Shown here piece by piece: positions 9,325-40,864 of a DNA stretch of 42,263 nt (positions within the stretch are counted from its first letter, which is position 1; every line of letters starts with the position of its first letter). Origin of the DNA: Lentisphaeria bacterium (lineage in GTDB: Bacteria > Verrucomicrobiota > Lentisphaeria > Victivallales > Victivallaceae). The notes beneath the pieces were generated by a model. That model did no database searches. It was not told the DNA's origin and saw only the letters and a list, made by a program, of their open reading frames with translations. The position numbers and the translations under genes were made by a program. The stretch covers positions 1 to 42,263 of the forward strand of contig JAFVZS010000091.1 in the NCBI GenBank assembly GCA_017508015.1, read 5' to 3'.

Positions 9325-9441
9325 TTACTTTTCTTTTTCCGTAAAAAGAGCAATTCCCATTTTGAGTCGATCCCGACGGGAGTTTTTGCCAAGCTTTTTT
9401 CAAAAAAGCGCCGATCAAGCCGTTGCGGCTGCAACGGCGCG
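9325..9441. repeat. 117-bp repeat, copy 1
   Basis: Identical to 9630-9746 except for one base (A at 9370, T at 9675). The unit begins TTACTTTTCTTTTTCC and ends CTGCAACGGCGCG. Inside it are short palindromes CTTTTT/AAAAAG, CTTTTTTCAAAAAAG and GCCGTTG/CAACGGC. It looks like a dispersed palindromic element. Confidence 0.9.
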
Positions 9442-9629
9442 CCCCCCCGTTTGTTTTGCATCTCCCATCCAAGCTCTCAAAAATCCTTAAAATTTTTCAC
9501 CGTGATCTGATCCCGGAGCGTTTTCGGCTGGTTACTTACCAGTAGCCGCCTCAAACTACCGGGTTCATCTCCTCGCTGAAAATATTTTAATCTCTTTTTG
9601 ATCAGCTTGGCTGAGAGATGCCCTTTTGC

Positions 9630-9746
9630 TTACTTTTCTTTTTCCGTAAAAAGAGCAATTCCCATTTTGAGTCGTTCCCGACGGGAGTTTTTGCCAAGCT
9701 TTTTTCAAAAAAGCGCCGATCAAGCCGTTGCGGCTGCAACGGCGCG
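9630..9746. repeat. 117-bp repeat, copy 2
   Basis: The second copy, 305 bp downstream of copy 1 with 116 of 117 positions identical. It is followed within 20 bp by a related TTACTTTTCTTTTTTC segment (9767-9782) that forms one arm of the palindrome at the end of the repressor gene. Confidence 0.9.
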
Positions 9747-9765
9747 ACTCCCCGTTTTTCTTTTG

Positions 9766-9799: not shown

Positions 9800-10705
9800 T
9801 TACATTTCGCTGATTTTTTTGACGACAATGCCGATCCAGGCGATATCATCAGGGGAACAGGGAATGATCCGGCCTTCCGGGTTGTCGCTGGTCAGAAGCA
9901 TTTGAGAAGGGGATTGTTTGCGCAAGCGTTTGCAGACGACTTTTTCCGGGATATTGCTTTGTTCGCTGAAGCGGACTACGACGACTTTGTTATCTGGGAT
10001 GGCATTGAGATTTTCTGCCGGTTCGACCAGTACGATATCATCATCGAGGATTCTGGGTTCCATGGAAATGCCGTGTACTTTAAAGGCCCGGGTATCCCGT
10101 CTGGAATCGGCCGGTACCGGTACGGTCAGGGTGGTATCGGGGTCCCAGTTTTGCATGATGACGTTATCGGATTCCAGAGATTCCAGGTGACTGGCGGCGT
10201 TGGCCCACTCTACTACCGGAACGGGGCGAACGAGCATGGCTCCGTCGCGATAGAGTCCGCGTGGTGAGAGCATGGATAATTCACTGCCGGATAGCGGGGA
10301 ATCGGCCGGATCGCAATTGAGGACATCGAAAACAGCCGAAAGCACATCCGGGAACCAATTCAATTCTCCGTTGAAAAGGCGGTTTATGGTAGTTTGTGAA
10401 TCGTAACCGATCGCGCGGCGCAGCTGTTCGGTGGAATTCATGCCGTTTTCAGCCATTTTCTGCCGGATAAATTCCCGCAGAGCGGCACTGTTTTTGATGG
10501 TACCGGAAGTGGCCGGTAGTGGTGGAAGTTCCAAAACGGCCTGTAATTTTTCCCAGCAGTCATCGGTAATTGATTTTACTTTACCGCTTAAATAGCGGGA
10601 GATATTGGAGGCACTTACCTGGCATTTGGCGGCCAGTTCTTTGGCATCTCCGGCTTGTGCGACTGCCTTGCGCAGGGCTTGGAGTATTCTGTCATCGATT
10701 CTCAT
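9800..10705 (-). CDS. Phage-type repressor: two HTH domains plus S24 (LexA/CI-like) peptidase domain
   Basis: This 301-residue protein starts at ATG 10705, which has AAAGG upstream; longer upstream starts lack one. Residues 1-60 form an XRE-like helix-turn-helix (VSASNISRYLSG). Residues 70-132 look like a second HTH (SQTTINRLFNGELNWFPDVL). Residues about 160-295 form a LexA/CI-like S24 domain with HGISMEP (Ser214 nucleophile) and VVCKRL (Lys259 general base). A canonical Ala-Gly cleavage site is not obvious; EWANAASH near 166-173 lies about where one is expected. It is divergent from the packaging genes, and three operator-like palindromes lie between. It probably represses the rightward genes and itself, with release on DNA damage as in lambdoid systems. 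That regulation is inferred. Confidence 0.88.
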   Translation of the reverse strand: MRIDDRILQALRKAVAQAGDAKELAAKCQVSASNISRYLSGKVKSITDDCWEKLQAVLELPPLPATSGTIKNSAALREFIRQKMAENGMNSTEQLRRAIGYDSQTTINRLFNGELNWFPDVLSAVFDVLNCDPADSPLSGSELSMLSPRGLYRDGAMLVRPVPVVEWANAASHLESLESDNVIMQNWDPDTTLTVPVPADSRRDTRAFKVHGISMEPRILDDDIVLVEPAENLNAIPDNKVVVVRFSEQSNIPEKVVCKRLRKQSPSQMLLTSDNPEGRIIPCSPDDIAWIGIVVKKISEM

Positions 10706-10745
10706 TTTTTTACCTTTCACAGTATATGGCATCTTACAAGATATA

Positions 10746-10777
10746 AATATACACCTTGATTGCGTGCATGCAAGCAA
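10746..10777 (-). promoter_or_regulatory. Operator-like site O1 over the repressor promoter
   Basis: Core TTGCGTGCATGCAA at 10760-10773 is nearly palindromic. On the minus strand TTGCAT (10773-10768), a 16-bp spacer and TATATT (10751-10746) make a sigma-70-like promoter for the repressor. The operator core covers the -35 and part of the spacer, consistent with autorepression. Confidence 0.6.
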
Positions 10778-10807
10778 TTTTTTTGAAAAAAAAGTTGTTT
10801 TTATGGG

Positions 10808-10835
10808 TTGAAAATTGCATCAATGCAATTATATT
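10808..10835 (+). promoter_or_regulatory. Operator-like site O2 filling the spacer of a rightward promoter
   Basis: TTGAAA (10808-10813), then a 16-bp spacer that is the inverted repeat ATTGCAT-CA-ATGCAAT, then TATATT (10830-10835). The operator core TTGCATCAATGCAA is at 10815-10828. A protein bound here would exclude RNA polymerase from the rightward promoter. Confidence 0.6.
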
Positions 10836-10882
10836 GTCTTTTTCTGTGGGCTTAAGCGTGTGCTCAAAATTTTTTACCCGTC

Positions 10883-10910
10883 TTGGTTGCACGCATGCAA
10901 TCAAGATAAT
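10883..10910 (+). promoter_or_regulatory. Operator-like site O3, second rightward promoter candidate
   Basis: Core TTGCACGCATGCAA at 10887-10900 matches O1 in inverted orientation; the flanks extend the match (CTTGATTGC in the inverted copy). TTGGTT (10883-10888), a 16-bp spacer and GATAAT (10905-10910) form a weaker promoter candidate. The centre-to-centre spacings O1-O2 and O2-O3 are about 55 and 72 bp. Confidence 0.55.
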
Positions 10911-10936
10911 AAAACATTAAAGAAAGGATTAGAAAG

Positions 10937-11134
10937 ATGGTTTCAGGCAGGGGGAAGATCTCCGATCCGCTGATTTCCAAAGCCGGTAATATTTATTCGG
11001 CGGCGGGAATTTTGCGGCTTTTCGGAAAAATTTTTCCAAATCGTGTTGACGATCCGGTGCATTTATGGAACAAGTCAATGTGCAGGAGTGATCACCATGA
11101 CTCAAAACAACAATCAAAATACAAAAGGAAGTGA
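10937..11134 (+). CDS. Small unknown protein at the head of the phage cassette
   Basis: A 65-residue frame begins just after the operator region with GAAAGG 9-10 bp upstream of ATG 10937. It has no motif I recognise. Its last 38 bp overlap the following gene in another frame, and the C-terminus (SDHHDSKQQSKYKRK) is low complexity, which lowers the case for it being real. It could be a short early protein or a leader peptide. Confidence 0.35.
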   Translation: MVSGRGKISDPLISKAGNIYSAAGILRLFGKIFPNRVDDPVHLWNKSMCRSDHHDSKQQSKYKRK

Positions 11135-11342
11135 CGATGAGCTTTTGAAGTTGGTCGAAGATGCTTTGTTGAGGCGGGCAACCGGCTACGAGGATGCTTC
11201 CGGCAAAGCGGTTCCCCCGGATGTCCGGGCAGCCATGTACTGGCTGGAAAACCGTTGTCCGGAAAGGTGGAAAAAGAATCGTGCAACGGGTAAAGATGAT
11301 GATCCGGGCGGATTGCTGACTGATGATGAAGCTGCACTTTAA
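11097..11342 (+). CDS. Short terminase-small-subunit-like protein
   Basis: This 81-residue protein uses ATG 11097 with AGGAG at 11084-11088; a longer frame from 11043 lacks a good ribosome site. Residues about 38-58 read PPDVRAAMYWLENRCPERWK, which resembles the PDTTAxIFWLKNRRPxxWRDK signature in many phage small terminase subunits. The N-terminal DNA-binding HTH usual in that family is missing, since only about 35 residues precede the motif. It lies 15 bp before the portal gene, in the usual small-terminase position. It may be a reduced TerS, or a TerS-derived packaging factor that works with the HTH protein encoded upstream of terL. The match is by eye. Confidence 0.6.
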   Translation: MTQNNNQNTKGSDDELLKLVEDALLRRATGYEDASGKAVPPDVRAAMYWLENRCPERWKKNRATGKDDDPGGLLTDDEAAL

Positions 11343-11357
11343 TGAAGAGGAGAAATC

Positions 11358-12737
11358 GTGAAAAATTATATCTTTCACCGTAAAAATGCGGAATATGCCG
11401 CCAATGAACGCCGCTGGCGGCGTGCTGCCGAGGCTTATTCCGGCGGCCGGGAATATATTGAACAGGCACTGATCCGGCATGTTTCGGAGATCGATCTGGA
11501 ATTTTCCGAACGCCGCCGCCGCGCCTATTACTTCAATTATCCCCGGGCTATCGCACGGCGTATAACTCAATATGCTTTGAGTGTCGATCCGGTACGGCGC
11601 AATGCGGATCCTGAATTGCTGGAAGATTGGAGCCGCACCGGTTTGCGCACCAATGAGGTCATGCGTCAGTTATCCACACTGCTCAATGTTTACGGCCGGG
11701 CGTGGCTGCTGGTGGATATGCCGATATTTGACGGCACTCCCAGCCGTTTGCAGGCGAAAAATGAGCGATTGCGTCCCTATGTGCGGGCCGTTTCACCGCT
11801 TCAGGTGGTGGATTGGGCTTACGGCGAGGATGGCAAATTGCTCTGGGCATTGATCGCCGAAGAGCTGACACTTGCCGAAGATCCATTCTCTCCGCCGGTA
11901 CATCTGCGTCGCCGCCGTCTTTACGACCGGAACAGCTGGCGGCTGTTTGAATACAGTTCCGGCGGAGTGCAGGAGATCGCTTCCGGGATCAATCCCACCG
12001 GCTGTGTGCCGTTGATCGGCGTGACGGAACCGGATGGTTTCGGTTTGTCGGCCAACCACTGGTTCGAAGATGTGGTGCGCATCAGTGAGGCGATTTTGAA
12101 TAATGAATCCGAAGCGCAGATGAATACGGTCAAGCAGATGTTCGGCATGCTGGTGGTTTCTGATTCATTTGCCCGCAGTGCCCGGAAATTTTCCGGCGCA
12201 GAAAAGAGCAGCGACAACTTTGCCGCCACCGTCGCCCGCAGTGCTGCGATCATTGAATCGGTGGATGAAAAGGGGATCAGCCGTTTTATCAGTCCTTCCG
12301 GGGTGGCTACTGATACCATCCGTGAAGAGAACCGCTATCTCAAACAGGAGTTGTACGACGTGGTAGGATTGGCAGTACAGAGCAATTCCAAAGAGCGGCA
12401 GAGTGCTGAATCCAAGGAGTGGGATTTCCAGAATGTAGCTCAATTTCTCGCAGTCCGGGCCGAATTGCTCGAACAGGCCGAATTGGATGCCTGGAAGCTC
12501 ATGCGCCGCTATGATTTGGATCTGGCGGTGCCGGAGATCCATTATAACCGCCGGTTTGCAGTCGGTGATCTGGCTTCCGGTATTGCCGGGCTGCTGCAAT
12601 TGTCGGAAATCCCCGGCGGCAATGCCTACCGCCGGGCCGTCAGCCGGACGGCTGTCGAATTACTGGGCAATATCGGGCCGGTAAGTGCCGGTGAAAAGGA
12701 AAAGATCATTCACGAAATCGATCAGGAGAATGAGTAA
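11358..12737 (+). CDS. Phage portal protein
   Basis: This 459-residue protein has portal length and character: N-terminal aromatic/basic segment (YYFNYPRAIARRITQYALSV), a mixed alpha/beta middle, and a long helix-rich C-terminal third (about 320-400, QELYDVVGLAVQSNSKERQS) matching the stem and crown helices of portals. Position before a scaffold-like gene and the capsid gene supports this. Portals form the dodecameric ring at one capsid vertex through which terminase loads DNA. The start has GAGGAG upstream at 11345-11350. The stop overlaps the next start by one base (TAATG), which implies coupled translation. The family is assigned from pattern and context rather than from a short signature motif. 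Confidence 0.75.
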   Translation: MKNYIFHRKNAEYAANERRWRRAAEAYSGGREYIEQALIRHVSEIDLEFSERRRRAYYFNYPRAIARRITQYALSVDPVRRNADPELLEDWSRTGLRTNEVMRQLSTLLNVYGRAWLLVDMPIFDGTPSRLQAKNERLRPYVRAVSPLQVVDWAYGEDGKLLWALIAEELTLAEDPFSPPVHLRRRRLYDRNSWRLFEYSSGGVQEIASGINPTGCVPLIGVTEPDGFGLSANHWFEDVVRISEAILNNESEAQMNTVKQMFGMLVVSDSFARSARKFSGAEKSSDNFAATVARSAAIIESVDEKGISRFISPSGVATDTIREENRYLKQELYDVVGLAVQSNSKERQSAESKEWDFQNVAQFLAVRAELLEQAELDAWKLMRRYDLDLAVPEIHYNRRFAVGDLASGIAGLLQLSEIPGGNAYRRAVSRTAVELLGNIGPVSAGEKEKIIHEIDQENE

Positions 12738-13168
12738 TGTCAAACAATGAAAATGATGAAAGCCGGGAACTCCCGGTTGAACCGCAGGAAAAAAGTCCGG
12801 AAGAGCGACTGACCGAACTGGAAAATGAATACTCTCTGCTGCAACAGAAGTATTCCGCATTGCAGCAGCGCAACATTCTGGAAAAGGTTTGCTTTGAAAG
12901 CGGTTGTACTGACCCCGGATATTTGCAATTTTGTGCGGAGCGCAAAGGTGTCAACCTTGAAGATACGGAAGCTCTGCGGCAGTTCGCCGGTGAACTTGCC
13001 GTTTCCGCTCCGGGGGTCTTCAGTGCCCGGATCATTCCCGGCAGCAGTGCCGGGAGTGCCAAATTATCCACCTCCCCGTCCGGGATTGCGGAGGAGGCAT
13101 TTCCCGGTGACCGGATCGCCTTGATTGCACTGTCGATCGACAATGCTCCGGATGTTTCCGGCCGATAA
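12737..13168 (+). CDS. Putative capsid scaffold protein
   Basis: This 143-residue acidic protein has an N-terminal coiled coil (about 15-50, SPEERLTELENEYSLLQQKY) and a Ser/Gly/Pro-rich C-terminal part. Scaffold proteins of tailed phages have this composition and lie between portal and major capsid genes, as here. No protease motif is visible, so the head may mature without a dedicated prohead protease. The function is inferred from composition and position. A minor head protein is the alternative. Confidence 0.6.
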   Translation: MSNNENDESRELPVEPQEKSPEERLTELENEYSLLQQKYSALQQRNILEKVCFESGCTDPGYLQFCAERKGVNLEDTEALRQFAGELAVSAPGVFSARIIPGSSAGSAKLSTSPSGIAEEAFPGDRIALIALSIDNAPDVSGR

Positions 13169-13202
13169 TATAAACATAATTCAAAAAAAAGGAAAAACAA
13201 AC

Positions 13203-14360
13203 ATGCTTTACAACTATTCTTTCGCCAACCGTAAACGTGACCTGTCTGATGTGATGGCAACTGTCATCAAGGATGAGCCGCGTTTCATTTCCAACTTCCG
13301 CACTGCTCCGGATGCCGCTTCTGCCAAACATGAATATCTGGAAGATCAGCTCACCGGCAGGGGTGTCGCCGCCACTGCCATTGCCGATGGTGTGCTGACT
13401 TTGAGTGCCGCCGATGCCGCCAAACTCAAAGTCGGTACTTTGCTGGCCCTCAAAGATGATCCGGCCCTTTTCCGCGTGACTGCTGTGACCGGTGAAACTG
13501 CCGCGCTGGAATTGGCCGGCAGCAACGGTTCCAACCTTACTGCGGCGACCGGTTTGCCTGCAGAGGGCGGCAAATTTCTCATCGTTTCCACGCCGATGGG
13601 TGAAGGAACTTCCAACGGCGACGGTGAAGAAAATTATCATCTTTCCACGGTGGAGTGGAATGCCACGCAGATCTTCCGTAAAGAGATCGTGCTTTCCGGA
13701 ACTGCTCTGGCGGTAAATCTTTACGGCAATGCCGACAATCAGTTGAACCGTCAGACCGCTTTTGCTCTTGCCGACCTTGCCCGTGATCTCAACCGGGTGG
13801 CACTTTTCGGCCGCCGGGTGGAAGCGACGGTAAACACCAGAGGCGAGGCCGGAGGATTGTACTTTTTCGGTACGCAGCCGGGAGTTCCGGTGATCGATGC
13901 CGCCAAAAGTAAATTGGATAGCTTCCTGATCAATGATGCGGCACAGGCGATCCTCGGCGAGGGTGGTGATCCGATGCAGATCCTCTGTTCCCCCGGTCAG
14001 GCACGGGTTATTTCCAATGAATACCGTGACCGTATTCAAATTCTGCGTTCCGATGACCGCCGCGGGGCGTATGTTGCAGTCATCGTCAACGAAATCAACG
14101 GCAGAGGCATGACCATCATGGCCGATCCGGATATGCCCGACGGTGATGCGTGGGTGCTGGATACCGGTTGTTTCGCTCTGGCCAGTCTTTCCGGCAGAGC
14201 GATCACCGATATGGATGCCACGCCTGGTGGTTTCGACGGCATCCGCCGGGTGGCGATCGGTGAATTGACCTTTGAATTCAAAAACGTCAAACAGCGTTGC
14301 TGCCGGATCAAAAATCTGCTTGCCAGCAGTGAAGCGATCGCCGCTTTGCGCAATGCATAA
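13203..14360 (+). CDS. Major capsid protein, SU10/DUF5309-like (HK97 fold)
   Basis: This 385-residue protein starts at ATG 13203 with AAAGGAAA upstream; the frame is open further upstream but without a ribosome site. The N-terminal NRKRDLSDVMATVIKDEPRF followed by KHEYLEDQL matches the SU10-type major head proteins, whose N-terminus reads RDLSDVI... then HEWxxD. The C-terminus (GELTFEFKNVKQRCCRIKNL) fits the same family. It forms the capsid shell. A perfect 11-bp GC-rich hairpin follows the gene, as is common after highly expressed capsid genes. Codon use agrees with the rest of the cassette and with the host genes. Confidence 0.8.
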   Translation: MLYNYSFANRKRDLSDVMATVIKDEPRFISNFRTAPDAASAKHEYLEDQLTGRGVAATAIADGVLTLSAADAAKLKVGTLLALKDDPALFRVTAVTGETAALELAGSNGSNLTAATGLPAEGGKFLIVSTPMGEGTSNGDGEENYHLSTVEWNATQIFRKEIVLSGTALAVNLYGNADNQLNRQTAFALADLARDLNRVALFGRRVEATVNTRGEAGGLYFFGTQPGVPVIDAAKSKLDSFLINDAAQAILGEGGDPMQILCSPGQARVISNEYRDRIQILRSDDRRGAYVAVIVNEINGRGMTIMADPDMPDGDAWVLDTGCFALASLSGRAITDMDATPGGFDGIRRVAIGELTFEFKNVKQRCCRIKNLLASSEAIAALRNA

Positions 14361-14393
14361 GAGATTTTGAAGGTTTATTGTGACACCATCGCT

Positions 14394-14422
14394 CTTTCCC
14401 CCCGTTCAATGCGGGGGGAAAG
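14394..14422 (+). terminator. GC-rich hairpin after the major capsid gene
   Basis: CTTTCCCCCCG (14394-14404) pairs with CGGGGGGAAAG (14412-14422) around a 7-base loop, 33 bp after the capsid stop codon. No T-run follows, so it may stabilise the 3' end of the capsid mRNA or attenuate rather than fully terminate. Confidence 0.6.
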
Positions 14423-14443
14423 GGAATTTCGGAGATATGAGCT

Positions 14444-14866
14444 ATGACACTGATTGAAATCGATGAATTTTTCCGGGAACATCCGCTGAAAGAAAGCTAC
14501 TTCAAATTCAGCGATACCGAACGTGCCGGAATCGCTGCTGTGGCGGAGCGTGATGTGACTGCGGCAGTGGCCAATGTGCCGCAAATTTCCGCCAAAGAAC
14601 AGCAACTGGTCGATGCTGCGATTGCTGAACAGACCGTTTTTCTGATGCTCAATCCGGAATATCTGACCGGCATTTTCACCCGTATCGAAAATATCGGTTC
14701 AGCCGGAAACAGCCGCCGTTTCAGCGGTCAGGAGTCTCCGCTGGGGCAGCGGCCGGCAGCTTTGATCGCTCCGCTGCTTGAACGCAGCAGCAGTACCGGC
14801 AGCAGCAGTGCCGCCGCCGGAAACCGTGAAGCTTTGCCGCCGGTTATATCGCTTTTGCGCGGTTGA
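14444..14866 (+). CDS. Putative head completion/connector protein
   Basis: This 140-residue protein follows the capsid gene. It has an alpha-helical N-terminal half (FSDTERAGIAAVAERDVTAA then EQQLVDAAIAEQTVFLMLNP), which resembles the small helical connectors (HK97 gp6-like, DnaT-like) that dock on the portal, and a Ser/Ala/Gly-rich C-terminus (RSSSTGSSSAAAGN). GGAGATATGAGCT lies upstream of the ATG. No tail gene follows, so if it is a connector it would seal the head or receive tails from another element. The assignment rests on position and helical pattern. Confidence 0.55.
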   Translation: MTLIEIDEFFREHPLKESYFKFSDTERAGIAAVAERDVTAAVANVPQISAKEQQLVDAAIAEQTVFLMLNPEYLTGIFTRIENIGSAGNSRRFSGQESPLGQRPAALIAPLLERSSSTGSSSAAAGNREALPPVISLLRG

Positions 14867-14895
14867 GGATAATTTTTACAGAAGAGGAGAGTTTT

Positions 14896-15396
14896 ATGAA
14901 TAACCCGGAATGTTACGGAAAATTTCCCAACGGCACATCCCCGTGTGCCAAGTGTGATTACTTTGATTCCTGCCGCTATTATGCCGCCACGGCAAAAAAG
15001 ATGAACCGGCGGGAAAAGAATACCGTCAGTTTTGAAACGGCAGGTTTTATGGCGGAAACGGCAGTTTTTCCGGAAATCCCCGATGCTGAAAGCATTTCCG
15101 AAAAGGCGGGTCTCATTGATGTGGTCGGCCGTTTTTTCCGCTATCTGCTTGATCTGGATGATTATACTCTGGCGATGATCTGTCAGGTCATCTGCGGAGA
15201 TGCCGGCGGCAGACCGGCAACGGTCAGTGCTTTGAGCGGTCAGATGGGCTGTTCCCGGCAGGCCACCCACCGGAAACTTCTGACGATCATTGCGGAACAT
15301 CCGGAACTTTCCGGATTTTTCGGCAGTTTGATGCCGAAAATTTCCCGTTCCAGAAATATGTTCTGGCGGCATCGCCGGAATGAGTGCTGCAAATGA
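14896..15396 (+). CDS. Cys-cluster and HTH protein, candidate regulator or terminase DNA-recognition subunit
   Basis: This 166-residue protein starts at ATG 14896 with GAGGAG upstream (14883-14888). Residues 6-28 carry four Cys (CYGKF...SPCAKCDYFDSC), a possible metal site. Residues about 107-131 (TVSALSGQMGCSRQATHRKL) form a convincing helix-turn-helix. It lies 14 bp before the terminase large subunit gene. An HTH protein in that spot could recognise packaging sites, supplying the DNA-binding half missing from the short TerS-like protein, or could regulate late transcription. I do not recognise the family. Confidence 0.6.
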   Translation: MNNPECYGKFPNGTSPCAKCDYFDSCRYYAATAKKMNRREKNTVSFETAGFMAETAVFPEIPDAESISEKAGLIDVVGRFFRYLLDLDDYTLAMICQVICGDAGGRPATVSALSGQMGCSRQATHRKLLTIIAEHPELSGFFGSLMPKISRSRNMFWRHRRNECCK

Positions 15397-15410
15397 ACTG
15401 CCGGTGAAAT

Positions 15411-16664
15411 ATGTTCCGTTATACCCCCATTCAGCATAAAGCATTGAAACTGCTTTCCGCACCGGTCGGGCATATCATGCTTTTCGGCGGTTCAAGGTCA
15501 GGCAAAAGCTTTGTTCTGTGCTGTGCTTTGGCCGCAAGGGCCTTGAATGCCCCCGGCAGCCGCCATGCAGTGGTGCGCCGTTACTGTGCCAGTGCCCGCA
15601 CGACCATCGGCTTGGATACCTTGCCCAAGGTGTTGAAAAGCCGTTTCGGCAGTCGGGTACGCTGGAAATTCAACAAGTCGGAAAATTTTTTCCGTTTCGG
15701 CAATTCATCGGAAATTTGGCTGATCGGGCTGGATGACGGTGAAAGGGCCGATAAAATATTGGGTAAGGAGTTTGCAACGATTTACTTCAATGAGTGTTCC
15801 GAATTGGATTATGCCAGCGTACAGACCGCATTGACCCGGTTGGCACAAAACTCTCCGCCGCTGGTCAACCGGGCCTATTATGATTGTAATCCGCCGGGCA
15901 AAAGTCACTGGTGTTACCGGGTTTTTGTCGAAAAATGCGATCCGGTCAGCCGGAAGCGTTTTGCCCATCCGGAAAATTATGCGGCAATGCAGATGAATCC
16001 CAAAGACAACCGGTGCAATCTGCCGGCAGATTACATCGAAAATACCCTTGCCAATCTGCCGCTGCGTCAACAGGAAAGATTCCTGAAAGGTGAATGGCTC
16101 GACGACGAGGAAGGTGCTTTGTGGAGTTATTCCATGATCGATCCGCACCGGAAAAATTCCGCACCGGAACTGGAACGCATAATCGTCGGGATCGATCCGG
16201 CGGTGAATTATTCAGCGTCAAGCGATTATACCGGTATCGTGGCCGCCGGAGTTTCTGCGGATGGCGAGTTTTACGTGCTGGCTGACCGGAGCATGCGGGC
16301 AACTCCTTCTGAATGGGCTCAGGAAGCGGTTAAGCTCTGCGGCTTGCTGAAAGCTGATCAAATCGTTGTCGAGGTGAATAACGGCGGAGAATTGCTGGGA
16401 GCTTTGCTCTCCGGAAAAGATGAAAATATTCCGGTAAAACCGGTGCGGGCATTCAAGGATAAATATTCCCGGGCCGAACCGGTGGCCGCCTTTTACGAAA
16501 GAGGTTTGGTGCATCATGTGGGATACTTCCCGGAATTGGAAGCCCAGATGTGTTCTTTTTGCCCCGGCCGTTATTCCGGATCACCTGACCGGATGAATGC
16601 ATTGGTCTGGGCGGTAAGTGAATTGGCCGCCTTTTCCCCGGGATGCCGCTTTGTCACCGCGTGA
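15411..16664 (+). CDS. Phage terminase large subunit
   Basis: This 417-residue packaging motor has an N-terminal ATPase domain with Walker A FGGSRSGKS (residues 25-33) and Walker B IYFNECSELD (near 123-132), then an RNase-H-like nuclease domain with GIDPAVNYSASSDYTGI (Asp262), VVEVNNGGE and a C-terminal SPDRMNALVWAVSELA. Related terminases usually have SPDRxDAxVWA in the last motif; Asn replaces the second Asp here, while the first, more likely metal ligand, is kept. Length is normal for the family. It is the last gene of the cassette rather than the first, and only 31 bp separate its stop from the stop of the convergent GH99-like gene. Confidence 0.92.
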   Translation: MFRYTPIQHKALKLLSAPVGHIMLFGGSRSGKSFVLCCALAARALNAPGSRHAVVRRYCASARTTIGLDTLPKVLKSRFGSRVRWKFNKSENFFRFGNSSEIWLIGLDDGERADKILGKEFATIYFNECSELDYASVQTALTRLAQNSPPLVNRAYYDCNPPGKSHWCYRVFVEKCDPVSRKRFAHPENYAAMQMNPKDNRCNLPADYIENTLANLPLRQQERFLKGEWLDDEEGALWSYSMIDPHRKNSAPELERIIVGIDPAVNYSASSDYTGIVAAGVSADGEFYVLADRSMRATPSEWAQEAVKLCGLLKADQIVVEVNNGGELLGALLSGKDENIPVKPVRAFKDKYSRAEPVAAFYERGLVHHVGYFPELEAQMCSFCPGRYSGSPDRMNALVWAVSELAAFSPGCRFVTA

Positions 16665-23647: not shown

Positions 23648-24808
23648 TCAATCTTCATCGTCGATTCTGGTGTGCCGGTAGATCGATTGCACGATCCCCA
23701 GTGTGGTCATTGCCGTCAGAATGAATGAACCGCCGTAACTGACCAGCGGCAGCGGCAATCCGGTCACCGGGGCGATGCCGACACTCATGCCGATATTGAT
23801 GAATATGTGACAGAAAATCAGTGTCGCCACCCCGCAGGCAATATATCTGCCGTAAGAGGATACCAGAAATGCCGTCCGCAATATCGTGTAAAGTAACAAC
23901 GCATAGAGGGTCAGCAGGGTTATCACGCCGATAAAGCCGGTCTCTTCGGCGATCACGGAAAAGATGAAGTCGTTGTTGGAAACGGTCTGCGGCAGAAATC
24001 CCAGCTCATTTTGAGTTCCCCGCCCGATGCCGGTTCCGGAAGCTCCTCCTGCCCCGACGGCAAGTTTGGCCTGATAGGCGTTGTGACCACGGTTGCCGCG
24101 ATCGGAACCGGGATTGAGAAAGATCTTGATCCGGTCGCGCTGATAGTTGCGCAGTACCAGCGGATCTTCCCGGAAACTGTCAAAGAGGATAAAGGCGATC
24201 CCGGCGGCAATGGCGATCACTCCCAGAAGCACATACCGCCACTTGATTCCGAAACAAAAGAGCATGGCTCCGGAAACCGGCAGCAGTACCAGCGCACTTC
24301 CCAGATCCGGTTCAACGGCGATCAGCAGAAACGGTATGGCCACGGTGACCATGGCCAGAAAGATGCACAGCAGTTTGTTGCGGGCGAAACGCGGCGCAGA
24401 AAAGATTGCCGCCATCATGCCGATAACCATCAGCTTGGCCGGTTCCGACGGCTGAAGACGGAAGCCGAATATATTCAGCCAGCGGGTCGCACCGAAAACC
24501 TTTATCCCGAAAAAAAGTACTGCCGTCAGCAGCAGCAATGAAACCGCATAGCCGCCGATCATCAATGCCCGACAGGTGAATGAACGGTAGTCCAGCACCG
24601 AAACAAAAATGTATACTCCGGTACCGATCGCTATCCATATCAATTGTTTATAGAAAAATCCGCGGCTTTCTTCCGTGTCGATCTGCATTCCGGTGGAATT
24701 GATGAAAACCAGCCCGGCCGCCAGTAATAAAAATACAACTCCTATTTGCAGATAATCCAAGCTCTGCAAATAGGAGATTATCGGCAGCTGCCGGTCAGGT
24801 TTGCGCAT
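23648..24808 (-). CDS. rodA: Rod-shape-determining SEDS protein RodA
   Basis: This 386-residue integral membrane protein has about ten hydrophobic segments. The SEDS signature is present: HNAYQAKLAVGAGG, GRGTQNELGFLPQ then NDFIFSVIAEETGF, and the C-terminal GLPLPLVSYGGSF. RodA polymerises glycan strands for the lateral wall together with a class B PBP. RodA is favoured over FtsW by the DPGS-like loop and the GTQ-LGFLPQ motif. It starts 3 bp after the purA stop, so the two genes are co-transcribed. No mreC or PBP2 gene is nearby in the window. The end converges on the GH38 gene with a 21-bp gap. Confidence 0.9.
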   Translation of the reverse strand: MRKPDRQLPIISYLQSLDYLQIGVVFLLLAAGLVFINSTGMQIDTEESRGFFYKQLIWIAIGTGVYIFVSVLDYRSFTCRALMIGGYAVSLLLLTAVLFFGIKVFGATRWLNIFGFRLQPSEPAKLMVIGMMAAIFSAPRFARNKLLCIFLAMVTVAIPFLLIAVEPDLGSALVLLPVSGAMLFCFGIKWRYVLLGVIAIAAGIAFILFDSFREDPLVLRNYQRDRIKIFLNPGSDRGNRGHNAYQAKLAVGAGGASGTGIGRGTQNELGFLPQTVSNNDFIFSVIAEETGFIGVITLLTLYALLLYTILRTAFLVSSYGRYIACGVATLIFCHIFINIGMSVGIAPVTGLPLPLVSYGGSFILTAMTTLGIVQSIYRHTRIDDED

Positions 24809-24811
24809 GAC

Positions 24812-26086
24812 TTACTCCGCATCGGCGGCAAAAGTCTGGTCACGGCGCGGGCCTACGGAAATGATCGCCACTTCAGAATCGACCAATTCGGCCATACGGG
24901 CGAGATATTTCCGGGCATTTTCCGGCAGATCGGCAGTTTTGCGGGCTTCGCTGGTGCTGCACTTCCAGCCGGGCATATATTCATAGACCGGTTCAGCGGC
25001 TTCCAATTCAGCGACTGAAGCGGGAAATTCCGTGGTCAGCACTCCGTTGACTTTGTAGGCTACGCAGATGGCGATCTCATCAAGGTCATCCAGACAATCC
25101 AGTTTGGTTACAGCCAGTTTGTTGATACCGTTGACCATACAGGCGTAACGTGACGCGATCGCATCGAACCAGCCGCAACGGCGGGGTCTGCCGGTGGTCG
25201 CACCGAATTCCCGGCCGATCTGACGCAGTTTTTCACCGGTGGCATCGAATAATTCTGTCGGGAAAGGTCCTTCGCCGACCCGGGTGGTGTAAGCTTTGAT
25301 CACACCCCAGACATCGCGGATGCTCTGCGGGGGCACGCCGCCGCCGGTACAGGCTCCGCCGCTGGTGGTATTGCTGCTGGTAACAAAAGGATAGGTTCCG
25401 TGGTCGATATCCAGCAGGGCTCCCTGAGCACCTTCAAAAAGCACATTTTTGCCCTCTTTGACGGCCCGGTTGACCGAATAAACGGTGTCGCAGACCATGG
25501 GGGCGAGGCGTTTGGCCGCTTCGAGAACTTTGGTAAGTTCAGCTTCGATATCAAGCTGCGGAACTCCGTATTCAGCGAATACTTTATTGTATCTGGCGCA
25601 TTCAGCGCGGAATTGTTCAGCGAGTCTTTCCGGGAACTTCAAATCGATCGCCCGGATGCCGGTACGGCGCATTTTATCCATATAAGCCGGACCGATACCG
25701 CGACCGGTGGTGCCGATCTTCTGTTTGGCTTTGTTTTCGCTCAAAGTGTCAGCCACCCGGTGGTAGATGAAAATCATCTGTGCCCGGTTGCTCAGCTGGA
25801 CATTGTCAGTGGCAAAGCCTTTTTCCTCAATGCCCCGCAGTTCCTCATCCAATGCGACCGGATCAACGACCAGACCGTTGCCGATGACGCAGGTGACTTC
25901 CGGGCGGAAAATGCCCGACGGCACCAGATGCAGCACGTAACGTTTGTCGCCGATCTCCACCGTGTGACCGGCATTGTTGCCGCCTTGAAAACGCACCACC
26001 ATATCCACATCACGGGTGAGGACATCGATCAACTTGCCTTTGCCCTCATCGCCCCACTGGGTTCCGACCAGAATATCTACCGGCAT
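24812..26086 (-). CDS. purA: Adenylosuccinate synthetase
   Basis: This 424-residue enzyme makes adenylosuccinate from IMP, aspartate and GTP in AMP synthesis. ATG 26086 has AGGAG about 8 bp upstream; the longer frame to 26179 reads through the promoter. The N-terminal GTQWGDEGKGK loop (residues 8-18) holds the catalytic Asp13, and His41 lies in GGNNAGHT. GTTGRGIGPAY, FEGAQGALLDIDHGTYPFVT and the TGRPRRCGWFD region are all present. Length is standard. It is followed directly by rodA. Confidence 0.97.
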   Translation of the reverse strand: MPVDILVGTQWGDEGKGKLIDVLTRDVDMVVRFQGGNNAGHTVEIGDKRYVLHLVPSGIFRPEVTCVIGNGLVVDPVALDEELRGIEEKGFATDNVQLSNRAQMIFIYHRVADTLSENKAKQKIGTTGRGIGPAYMDKMRRTGIRAIDLKFPERLAEQFRAECARYNKVFAEYGVPQLDIEAELTKVLEAAKRLAPMVCDTVYSVNRAVKEGKNVLFEGAQGALLDIDHGTYPFVTSSNTTSGGACTGGGVPPQSIRDVWGVIKAYTTRVGEGPFPTELFDATGEKLRQIGREFGATTGRPRRCGWFDAIASRYACMVNGINKLAVTKLDCLDDLDEIAICVAYKVNGVLTTEFPASVAELEAAEPVYEYMPGWKCSTSEARKTADLPENARKYLARMAELVDSEVAIISVGPRRDQTFAADAE

Positions 26087-26150
26087 GATAAAAACTCCTG
26101 TTTTTGCTCCCGGAGAAGCAATTGTTGTTGAAAATAAACACTTAAACCAT

Positions 26151-37810: not shown

Positions 37811-37897
37811 TCGGCGCACTTATAGAACCGGGAAAAACTGCGGTTTTTTCTGAATTTGAAACAGCGTGATGGAGAAGAACAGGGAGGATTTTTTTTA

Positions 37898-40864
37898 ATG
37901 ATAAATGCAATCATCAAAGCGATATTCGGCACGAAAAGTCAGCGTGATGTCAGGCGGATGAAACCGCTGGTCGCCCGCATTAACGCTCTGGAAGTCGAAT
38001 ATCAGAAACTTTCCGATGAGGAACTTCAGGCTAAAACTCCGGAATTCAAGGAGCGTCTGGCCCGGGGTGAGACCCTTGATGACATCATGTGCGAAGCTTT
38101 TGCCACTGTCAAAAATGCCTGCCGCCGGCTCTGCGGCAAAACCCGGGAGGTCTGCGGGCAGGAGCAGACGTGGAATATGATCCCCTTTGATGTGCAGTTG
38201 ATGGGCGGCATCGCTCTGCATCGCGGTTCGATCGCCGAGATGGCCACCGGTGAAGGTAAAACTCTGGTGGCGACCATGCCGCTGTATCTCAATGCTCTGA
38301 CCGGTAAAAACTGCCAGTTGGTCACGGTCAACGACTATCTGGCCCGCCGTGACTCCGAATGGATGGGCATGATCTATGAGTTTCTCGGGCTGACGGTCGG
38401 CTGTCTGCAAAATATGCAGCCGCCGGCTCTGCGTAAAGAACAGTATGCCTGTGATATCACCTACGGGACCAACAGCGAATTCGGCTTTGACTATCTGCGG
38501 GATATGGGAATGGCTTCTGAGGCCGATCAGATCGTTCAGCGTGATCACTACTTCGCCATCGTGGACGAAATCGACAGTATTCTGATCGATGAAGCCCGTA
38601 CTCCGCTGATCATTTCCGGGCCGGTTCCGCAGGCCACCAATCAATTCGCTGAACTCAAACCGCTGGTTGCTTCACTCTACACCAGACAGAATATGCTCTG
38701 TTCCCGGCTGGTGCGGGAAGCCAGAGAGGTTCTGGCGCAGGAGATCATTACCGATGCGGAAAGAGAAGAAGCCTGTATGAAACTGCTTCAGGCCAAGTAC
38801 GGTATGCCGACACACCGGCAGCTGCTGCATGCCCTGGAAGACGGAGAAATTTTGCGGGAAGTCGAAAGACTGGATTCCAAAGTCCACAGTGACAACAACC
38901 GGGGAATGCTTCAGGAGGTTCAGTCGATCCTCTACTTCACCATCGACGAAAAGACCCATGAAGCTGATCTTACTGAGCTGGGCCGCAATGCCGTCAGTCC
39001 GGATAATCCGGATGACTTCATCATGCCGGATCTGCTCAGTGAACTGCACCGTATAACCGATGAAACGCTCACCGCAGAGGCACGTCTGGAAGCGAAAAAC
39101 ACCTTTCAGGATCAATTTGCCGTCAAGAGCGAAAAGCTTCACGACCTTTCACAGCTGCTCAAAGCCTACTGCCTTTTTGAAAAGGATGTCAATTATGTAG
39201 TTATGGATAAAAAGGTGATGATCGTCGATGAACACACCGGCCGTCTGATGCCCGGCCGCCGCTTTTCCGACGGTCTGCATCAGGCTCTGGAAGCCAAAGA
39301 GGATGTCCCCATTGAACAGGAGACTCAGACAATGGCGACCATCACCATCCAGAATTACTTCCGCATGTACAGCAAACTGGCCGGTATGACCGGTACAGCC
39401 GAAACGGAAGCTTCCGAATTTCATCAGATCTACAAGCTGGATGTGACGGTGATCCCCACCAACCGGCCGTGTATCCGCAAAGATGAGAATGACTCGATTT
39501 TCAAAACCAAACGTGAGAAATTCAAAGCGATCCTTGATGATGTCATTGAAAGGCATGAAAAAGGTCAGCCGGTACTGCTCGGCACGATTTCAGTCGGTGA
39601 TTCGGAAACGCTTTCCCGCATGCTCAAAGGGCGCAAGATACCCCACAATGTTCTGAATGCCAAAAATCACCAGCACGAGGCTGAAATCGTCGCCCGGGCC
39701 GGTCAGGTCGGGGCGGTTACTGTGGCAACCAACATGGCCGGCCGCGGTACTGACATCAAGCTCGGTGAGGGAGTGGCGGAATTGGGCGGACTGCATGTCA
39801 TCGGCAGTTCCCGGCATGATTCCCGGCGGATCGACCGGCAGTTGCGCGGCCGCTGTTCCCGTCAGGGTGATCCGGGAAGTTCCAAATTTTATGTCTCTCT
39901 GGAAGACGACCTCATGCGGCTTTTCGGCGGCGACCGGATCGTTAAGATATTTGACCGTTTCGGTTTGAAAGAAGGCGATGAACTTCAGCATCCGTGGCTG
40001 GATAAATCCATTGAAACTGCCCAGAAAAGGGTGGAGCAGCAGCATTTCGCCATCCGTAAACGCACGCTGGATTTTGACGATGTGATGAATAAGCAGCGGG
40101 AGATCGTCTATGCTTTGCGCCGTGATGCTCTGCTGTCGGAAAATCCCCATGATGTGCTTTTCGGCATTATTGATCAGGTCATTGAAGAGCTGGTCCAAAG
40201 GGTCGCTATGGGCGGGGATGGCAAAAACGACGGCAAATTTCAGGCAGATAAACTGGCCGCCGAACTCAATGTGCTTTTCCCGCTGGAATTCAAAGCGGAA
40301 TTTTTCACTGCCGGTATCGTTGACGGCAAAGTTACCGACTTCAAGGCTCTTGAATTGCAGATCATTGAAAAAATCGAAAGTGCTTATCAGGAGCGCAATG
40401 CCAATACCGGAGAAGAGGAGCTGGCCTATTTGCAGCGGCACACGGTGCTGGAGGCCATCGACCGTCTGTGGCAGGAGCATCTTTACGCCATGGATCAGTT
40501 GCGTTCCAGCATGTCTTTGCGGGTATATGCCCAGAAAGATCCGCTGGTCGAATATAAAAATGAAGCATTCGGTATATTCAAAAGCATGATGGATCAGGTC
40601 TTTACCAATGTGGCAAAGAATCTTTTCCGTATTACAGTGCGCCGGATCGTTTCACTTGAGGAGTTCCTTGCTTCCATGCCCAAAGAGTTGCGCCATCAGA
40701 CGATGGAACAATTCGGTCTGCCGGTTCCGGAAGCTCAGGAAGCAGCTCCGGCGGAAGAGGTCAATATCACTTTTCACCGGGAGGCTCCCAAAGTCGGCCG
40801 CAATGATCTTTGTCCCTGCGGAAGCGGAAAAAAATATAAAAAATGCTGCGGAAAAGAGCAGTGA
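37898..40864 (+). CDS. secA: Preprotein translocase ATPase SecA
   Basis: This 988-residue protein drives Sec export. ATG 37898 has GGGAGG about 10 bp upstream; a longer frame from 37856 is less well placed. The N-terminal DEAD domain has ATGEGKTL (about 116-123) and VDEIDSILIDEARTPLIISG (near 222). The second motor domain has NMAGRGTDIKLG and QLRGRCSRQGDPG. The C-terminal scaffold helices and the zinc-binding CPCGSGKKYKKCC end are present. Length is near the larger bacterial SecA forms. It lies upstream of valS with a 23-bp gap. Confidence 0.97.
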   Translation: MINAIIKAIFGTKSQRDVRRMKPLVARINALEVEYQKLSDEELQAKTPEFKERLARGETLDDIMCEAFATVKNACRRLCGKTREVCGQEQTWNMIPFDVQLMGGIALHRGSIAEMATGEGKTLVATMPLYLNALTGKNCQLVTVNDYLARRDSEWMGMIYEFLGLTVGCLQNMQPPALRKEQYACDITYGTNSEFGFDYLRDMGMASEADQIVQRDHYFAIVDEIDSILIDEARTPLIISGPVPQATNQFAELKPLVASLYTRQNMLCSRLVREAREVLAQEIITDAEREEACMKLLQAKYGMPTHRQLLHALEDGEILREVERLDSKVHSDNNRGMLQEVQSILYFTIDEKTHEADLTELGRNAVSPDNPDDFIMPDLLSELHRITDETLTAEARLEAKNTFQDQFAVKSEKLHDLSQLLKAYCLFEKDVNYVVMDKKVMIVDEHTGRLMPGRRFSDGLHQALEAKEDVPIEQETQTMATITIQNYFRMYSKLAGMTGTAETEASEFHQIYKLDVTVIPTNRPCIRKDENDSIFKTKREKFKAILDDVIERHEKGQPVLLGTISVGDSETLSRMLKGRKIPHNVLNAKNHQHEAEIVARAGQVGAVTVATNMAGRGTDIKLGEGVAELGGLHVIGSSRHDSRRIDRQLRGRCSRQGDPGSSKFYVSLEDDLMRLFGGDRIVKIFDRFGLKEGDELQHPWLDKSIETAQKRVEQQHFAIRKRTLDFDDVMNKQREIVYALRRDALLSENPHDVLFGIIDQVIEELVQRVAMGGDGKNDGKFQADKLAAELNVLFPLEFKAEFFTAGIVDGKVTDFKALELQIIEKIESAYQERNANTGEEELAYLQRHTVLEAIDRLWQEHLYAMDQLRSSMSLRVYAQKDPLVEYKNEAFGIFKSMMDQVFTNVAKNLFRITVRRIVSLEEFLASMPKELRHQTMEQFGLPVPEAQEAAPAEEVNITFHREAPKVGRNDLCPCGSGKKYKKCCGKEQ

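Follow-up and report, generated by a model that had tools for sequence, protein, structure and literature searches.

A compact head-and-packaging cassette among host genes

We analyzed a 42,263-nucleotide stretch of DNA (the window: JAFVZS010000091.1, contig 58 of the draft assembly GCA_017508015.1, a 1.49 Mb genome that is 61% complete) from an uncultured Lentisphaerota bacterium of the family Victivallaceae, for whose genome the nearest named records are Lentisphaerae metagenome-assembled genomes from rumen and colon. At positions 9800–16664 lies a cassette of phage-type genes that likely forms the head-and-packaging part of a domesticated siphophage resembling a gene transfer agent (GTA). 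A CI/S24 repressor on the minus strand stands divergent to a run of small terminase (TerS), portal, scaffold-like, capsid, connector-like, helix-turn-helix (HTH) and large terminase (TerL) genes, with all frames open and intergenic gaps of 0–83 bp from TerS through TerL (Table 1). An earlier reading of the window from its letters alone (the sequence-only reading) had named these genes and the repressor, and all of them were found at about the positions it gave, open and tightly packed.

Capsid, portal, TerS, TerL and repressor were assigned by significant profile matches to Pfam and PHROGs. An HK97 fold is presumed for the capsid protein from its SU10 family membership; in sequence searches of the PDB it matched no solved structure, while the portal had a weak match (0.008) and TerL matched a large terminase at 1e-5. 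The portal profile (A1) matches 20 of the 21 genomes searched. The connector role is assigned by gene position, since the AlphaFold2 model of the protein (helical, pLDDT 75) had no match in the PDB; the gene is kept after the capsid gene in cassettes, in dispersed gene sets of the family and in tailed prophages. Likewise, the Cys-rich HTH gene directly precedes TerL in every cassette and in the related prophages described below.

Table 1 Features of the cassette and of the host genes that anchor it in relatives.
Feature	Position	Strand	Basis
CI-like repressor	9800–10705	−	Pfam Peptidase_S24 (E 1e-14), HTH_26; two HTH regions and an S24 peptidase domain
Operator-like palindrome O1, ATTGCGTGCATGCAAGCAAT	10759–10778		Equivalents at several of 14 loci
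Operator-like palindrome O2, AAAATTGCATCAATGCAATTAT	10811–10832		Motif usually paired in the window's clade, the copies ~70 bp apart
Operator-like palindrome O3, TCTTGGTTGCACGCATGCAATCAAGA	10881–10906		One of the three palindromes at 10759–10906
TerS, 81 aa, without N-terminal HTH	11097–11342	+	phrog_309 (E 8e-11); alignment
Portal	11358–12737	+	phrog_145 (E 7e-43)
Scaffold-like protein	12737–13168	+	Weak homology to the scaffold of zth2, which passes Pfam Phage_scaffold
Major capsid protein, SU10 type	13203–14360	+	Pfam SU10_MCP (E 1e-45)
Connector/adaptor-like protein	14444–14866	+	Position after the capsid gene; no database match
Cys-rich HTH protein	14896–15396	+	Conserved place directly before TerL
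TerL	15411–16664	+	phrog_979 (E 7e-63); Pfam Terminase_6N/6C
rodA and purA, host genes anchoring the locus in relatives	23648–26089	−	Pfam; flanks common to L034, L035, L039 and L042

No tail, integrase, replication or lysis gene was found within the cassette itself, and ten large open reading frames (ORFs) from the rest of the window gave no match to a tail, integrase or lysis family, in line with the earlier statement that no integrase or lysis gene is visible. That host-like genes flank the cassette directly also held true, but the glycan genes named as its setting are not its anchor in relatives, where the locus is tied to rodA–purA. The cassette ends 3–40 bp from rodA at loci L034, L035, L039 and L042 (the window's subclade and closest relatives), whereas ~7 kb with glycosidase and regulator genes separate TerL from rodA in the window; the "glycan-use region" is thus a local addition.

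Inheritance with the host and descent from a tailed phage

The capsid gene was detected in 63 of 77 Victivallaceae genomes versus 6 of 116 from elsewhere in the class. Within the window's genus it occurs in 30 genomes (the window's included), mostly as a single copy without stops, and because it was recovered from 31 of the same 35 incomplete genomes in which the calibration gene rpoB was recovered from 29, the cassette matches a core gene in frequency. Gene order, whose comparison had been proposed as a check, was the same in complete cassettes read at no fewer than 16 loci of the genus. The capsid and portal tree agrees with that of rpoB in 13 of 20 splits, against no more than 3 in any of 1000 label shuffles; the two are correlated in a Mantel comparison (r 0.87; 0 of 2000 permutations), and flanking genes are common to sister genomes (L034 and L036; L045 and L046; L035 and the window). 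By its congruence with rpoB, its common flanks and its distribution in the family, the locus is vertically inherited, co-diversifying with its hosts as GTAs do, and near-universal in the genus, which is unlike the patchy, helper-dependent mobile spread of a satellite.

Pairwise Nei–Gojobori ratios of nonsynonymous to synonymous substitution (dN/dS; finite values only, 17 loci) were low for portal (0.06–0.15), capsid (0.08–0.17), TerL (0.05–0.22) and CI (0.09–0.18), the capsid and TerL values answering another check that had been suggested, and were higher for the scaffold, connector and HTH genes (0.08–0.37); there were no internal stops at these loci. Synonymous divergence of the capsid gene was much lower than that of the other cassette genes (dS 0.31 versus ~1.0 for the window and L039), perhaps owing to recombination or to the biased codon use of a highly expressed gene. 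Two separate pairs of sisters (L041 and L062; L039 and window 9799–30147) differ in the orientation of the whole cassette although their host flanks are the same, as though it were inverting in place.

Two elements, a tailed prophage in a relative (G064:C10) and a 44.8 kb IMG/VR element (2786546706_000002), here called PH64-like, carry the order TerS-portal-scaffold-capsid-connector-minor head-HTH-TerL-stopper-neck-terminator-tube, with a tape-measure-like gene following the tube gene in G064. Apart from the minor head gene, their TerS-to-TerL order is that of the cassette, to which their capsid is 65–67% and their TerL ~60% identical; unlike the cassette, they have minor head, stopper, neck, terminator, tube, tape measure and tail-tip genes and an HTH-bearing TerS. 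In the portal and capsid trees the genus cassettes form one clade with the PH64-like prophage as sister, and the scattered genes of other genera lie elsewhere. Judged from this gene order and these trees, the parent is a tailed siphophage that persists as a prophage in relatives, and since the genus cassette groups with the prophage and apart from the scattered genes of other genera, a single phage lineage may have been domesticated on two separate occasions within the family. Descent from caudoviricete proteins is shown by profiles and fold for capsid, portal, TerS, TerL, scaffold and tube. The same CI-to-TerL cassette is also present at L317 (IMG/VR 3300022661_003906), which is catalogued as viral. 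Catalogues of this kind may list domesticated loci as viruses.

Terminase, repressor and tail genes

An alignment of 17 TerS sequences of the genus with prophage and zth2 TerS revealed that the protein is 77–83 aa long at all nine loci of the window's clade, compared with 126–132 aa at eight sister loci and 152–155 aa in prophages. The N-terminal ~50 residues of the sister and prophage proteins, which read as an HTH, are gone in the window's clade; this assignment is partly alignment-based, as Pfam HTH models match only some of the longer proteins. Sherlock et al. described gp1 of the Rhodobacter capsulatus GTA (RcGTA) as having no N-terminal HTH and proposed this as a mark of GTA-type small terminases (PMC6854486), and TerS of the window's clade has the same form, without the N-terminal DNA-binding domain. 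The window's TerS probably packages DNA without sequence choice, and packaging would then have changed from specific to unspecific. In TerL, the Walker A (GGSRSGKS) and Walker B (YFNE) motifs and the acidic nuclease residues are kept in all 12 homologs compared, barring a D396N substitution found only in the window. Within the nuclease motif the substituted position is next to D393, itself invariant, and the change could affect nuclease activity.

The palindromic sites reported near the repressor are real: three lie at 10759–10906, between CI and TerS, and in most of 14 loci that were compared the same interval holds 22-bp palindromes. An exact match to the 16-mer ATTGCAYNNRTGCAAT was present in 17 of 19 genus genomes, exclusively on cassette contigs (contig-end fragments included), with two copies of this type ~70 bp apart as the usual arrangement, while its reversed control pattern had no matches in the same scan. 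Because this operator motif is confined to cassette contigs, CI seems to act on the cassette alone. A common CI regulon uniting cassette and tail genes was considered and rejected, as the motif was seen nowhere but at the cassette.

From what is known of LexA and CI proteins, we take the Ser of GISMEP and the Lys of CKRL in the window's CI to be the catalytic residues, and its Ala-Ala to stand in place of the usual Ala-Gly cleavage site. Among 14 aligned homologs, Ala-Ala together with Ser and Lys is characteristic of the window's clade, and the Ser/Lys dyad is lost at L041, L045, L046 and L062; no CI was found at the cassette loci L040, L043 and L044. The altered site, the loss of the dyad and the absence of CI across clades suggest that SOS self-cleavage is losing its part in CI control.

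The sequence-only reading had also noted that no tail gene is present, which is correct for the cassette but not for the genome, because a tail-tube homolog is encoded at another locus (G000:C114:3029–3451), where it is followed by tRNA-Val(TAC). Profiles built from the scattered genes of zth2 and from prophages detected this tube gene in 26 of 34 genus genomes (the tRNA adjoins it at 11 of the 12 loci scanned), a head-closure-like or stopper-like gene in 17 of 34, though not in the window's own clade, and a terminator-like gene in several, each apart from the cassette. The AlphaFold2 model of the tube protein (pLDDT 81) had tail-tube and related Hcp/tube proteins throughout its top matches (best Z 11.7), the RcGTA tail (6tba) among them, and dN/dS of the tube gene (mostly 0.10–0.21, with one pair at 0.42) points to purifying selection.

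The complete chromosome of zth2 carries homologous genes scattered among housekeeping genes, as do other genera. At 1.774 Mb, host genes enclose scaffold, capsid (1,774,406–1,775,545), connector and two tube-like genes, with ispE, pyrH and lpxA seen nearby by inspection. The portal gene (1,785,950) is accompanied by a small head-closure-like gene at 1.786 Mb. TerS-TerL is at 1.604 Mb, and tube-terminator fusion genes occur twice, once at 0.740 Mb and once at 1.276 Mb. In these fusions (L121 9175–10071 and L122 9658–10554) tube and terminator-like domains have been joined twice, with different small partner genes. Together with the separate tube, stopper-like and terminator-like loci of the genus, this amounts to full endogenization at multiple loci, as is often found for GTAs.

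A probable domesticated particle and its alternatives

We consider it likely, at a probability of roughly 0.7, that the cassette encodes the head and packaging functions of a GTA-like particle of Victivallaceae, derived from a siphophage that was domesticated and is inherited vertically. This reading draws on the intact and selected head genes, their inheritance with the host, the lack of a replication or integration module, the scattered tail genes and the loss of the TerS domain. In the mechanism we propose, release of CI from its private operators would let the cassette make proheads, which TerL and the truncated TerS would fill, headful by headful, with any cellular DNA present; the head would be closed by connector proteins together with a tube that is short or supplied by the host, and the particle would exit a minority of cells and may bring DNA to kin. 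Kogay et al. list six attributes of GTAs: caudovirion-like particles derived from caudoviricetes; an endogenized genome, often at multiple loci; mostly vertical inheritance; packaging of mostly random host DNA; a head too small for the GTA's own genes; and delivery to other cells (PMC9662315). Two of these were tested in full, multi-locus endogenization and vertical inheritance, and both were found.

Several observations weigh against this interpretation. Three well-supported pairs of splits in the capsid and portal tree conflict with rpoB, and, judging from the three cassette trees, cassettes and PH64-like prophages may have exchanged genes, mainly TerL. The cassette operator motif is absent from the tail-tube loci, as from everywhere except the cassette, and since the tube gene has no such operator its use together with the cassette is only inferred. 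The tube and stopper-like genes escaped detection in some genus genomes, an HK97-gp10-like neck gene was seen in true prophages and in no dispersed set, and genes for a tape measure, baseplate, fibre, spike or lysis did not turn up in a search that was not exhaustive and that, for tape measure, tail-tip and lysis genes, was not genome-wide. In one genome (G006:C25:32883–33889) the capsid gene is split between two frames with ~45 residues missing, possibly a decayed copy or an assembly error. More generally, the Victivallaceae particle, its packaged DNA and its transfer are predictions from gene content.

The missing fibre, baseplate and tape measure genes, the lack of a neck gene in dispersed sets and the patchiness of tail genes across the genus would also suit a domesticated particle that is not a GTA, namely a head, with or without a stub of a tail, that packs DNA for storage, shedding, decoy or immunity and never delivers it. 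We regard this as unlikely, as tube, head-closure-like and terminator-like genes are retained at separate sites, with the tube gene under selection, and these would make little sense without a conduit for delivery. A role in anti-phage defence was set aside, since PADLOC gave no match for five of the proteins. An ordinary prophage remnant, in which a PH64-like head module has persisted either by chance or because its CI confers superinfection immunity, would account for the gene order (that of the PH64-like module minus the minor head gene) and for the broken capsid gene of G006. It is nevertheless very unlikely given the purifying selection on all cassette genes, the absence of decay across the genus, the congruence with the host tree and the rpoB-like prevalence; moreover, some sister clades have lost CI or its catalytic dyad and retained capsid, portal and TerL, so the locus is not being retained for CI immunity. 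The sequence-only reading, which had set aside a classic prophage, is borne out in this by the selection and prevalence data. It had named tail or integrase genes beside related copies, or decay in sister strains, as signs of a remnant. Among 82 flanking ORFs at nine loci there was no tail or head gene of the listed families, and integrase or endolysin family matches were single and non-recurring; decay was absent from the 17 loci used for dN/dS, although not from G006. Apart from that capsid gene, neither visible decay nor adjacent tail, lysis or integration modules of a prophage were found.

Capsid-forming phage-inducible chromosomal islands (cf-PICIs) are mobile satellites with head and packaging genes, a CI-like regulator and no tail genes, and they carry integrase and replication genes. 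A satellite of this type, packing its own genome and borrowing tails from a helper phage, was one of the two possibilities raised in the sequence-only reading. The cassette resembles one in combining head and packaging genes with a CI-type switch and no tail genes, and PH64-like tailed prophages in relatives could act as helper. We now find this extremely improbable, since the locus has no integrase, excisionase or replication gene, no recurrent integrase in its flanks, and tight junctions with rodA or other host genes; since it is vertically inherited and near-universal; since TerS of the window's clade has lost the domain for choosing its own DNA; and since the window's genome has its own tube gene. 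The other possibility, a domesticated particle locus, is the one favoured by vertical inheritance, near-universality in the genus and the lack of an integrase or replication module.

Compared with known systems, the GTA-like set we favour has much in common with RcGTA (Rhodogtaviriformidae). In both, siphophage-derived head, portal, terminase and tail-tube genes are fixed in host chromosomes at several loci and inherited with the host, TerS has no N-terminal HTH (PMC6854486) and the tube fold is alike (6tba). The window's capsid, however, is of SU10 type without sequence match to solved structures, no compact cluster with tail and baseplate genes was found in Victivallaceae, whose tail genes lie far from the head cassette, and the cassette keeps a phage-type CI with private operators. 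For the GTA of Brachyspira (BhGTA, VSH-1), transfer has been tested experimentally. Its genes are likewise probably spread over several loci, but it comes from a different phylum, has different genes and includes an endolysin that has been validated experimentally (PMC9662315). Only a few GTA families have experimental validation, namely types I and II of Alphaproteobacteria, Brachyspira and a handful more (PMC9662315, PMC12946183), and our search of the open-access literature, a scope that leaves out most subscription journals, yielded no GTA described from Lentisphaerae or Victivallaceae.

Wang et al. observed hexagonal particles of <100 nm from WC36 fed polysaccharides, and hexagonal particles also from polysaccharide-fed zth2; a "phage portal protein" was strongly induced in WC36, and the phage genomes assembled there were non-chromosomal (PMC11361711). 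The chromosomal gene set may be an alternative source for some of these particles. A more ambitious version, which we hold only tentatively and think rather doubtful as a whole, is a family-wide, undescribed GTA whose head would be under a private CI partly uncoupled from SOS and whose tail would come from dispersed, host-controlled genes, which would be identical with the hexagonal particles of WC36 and zth2, and in which glycan feeding would trigger export of host DNA. As zth2 and WC36 are in culture, the idea that the chromosomal set is a source of particles is directly testable. Nearly every Victivallaceae species, among gut and sediment bacteria alike, carries an inherited head gene set that looks like a new GTA. 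If so, it would represent a separate phage domestication fixed across a bacterial family with the parent prophage surviving in relatives, and would offer a natural before-and-after series for the loss of the DNA-recognition domain from TerS and of the self-cleavage residues from CI.

Two further features of the window lie outside the cassette. A 133-nt direct repeat (96%) with inverted ends, at 9325–9457 and 9630–9762 just outside the repressor gene, resembles a small dispersed repeat. Far from the cassette, positions 37856–40861 encode a 1002-aa protein that matches phrog_32805, a PHROG family of unknown function, with 802 bits.

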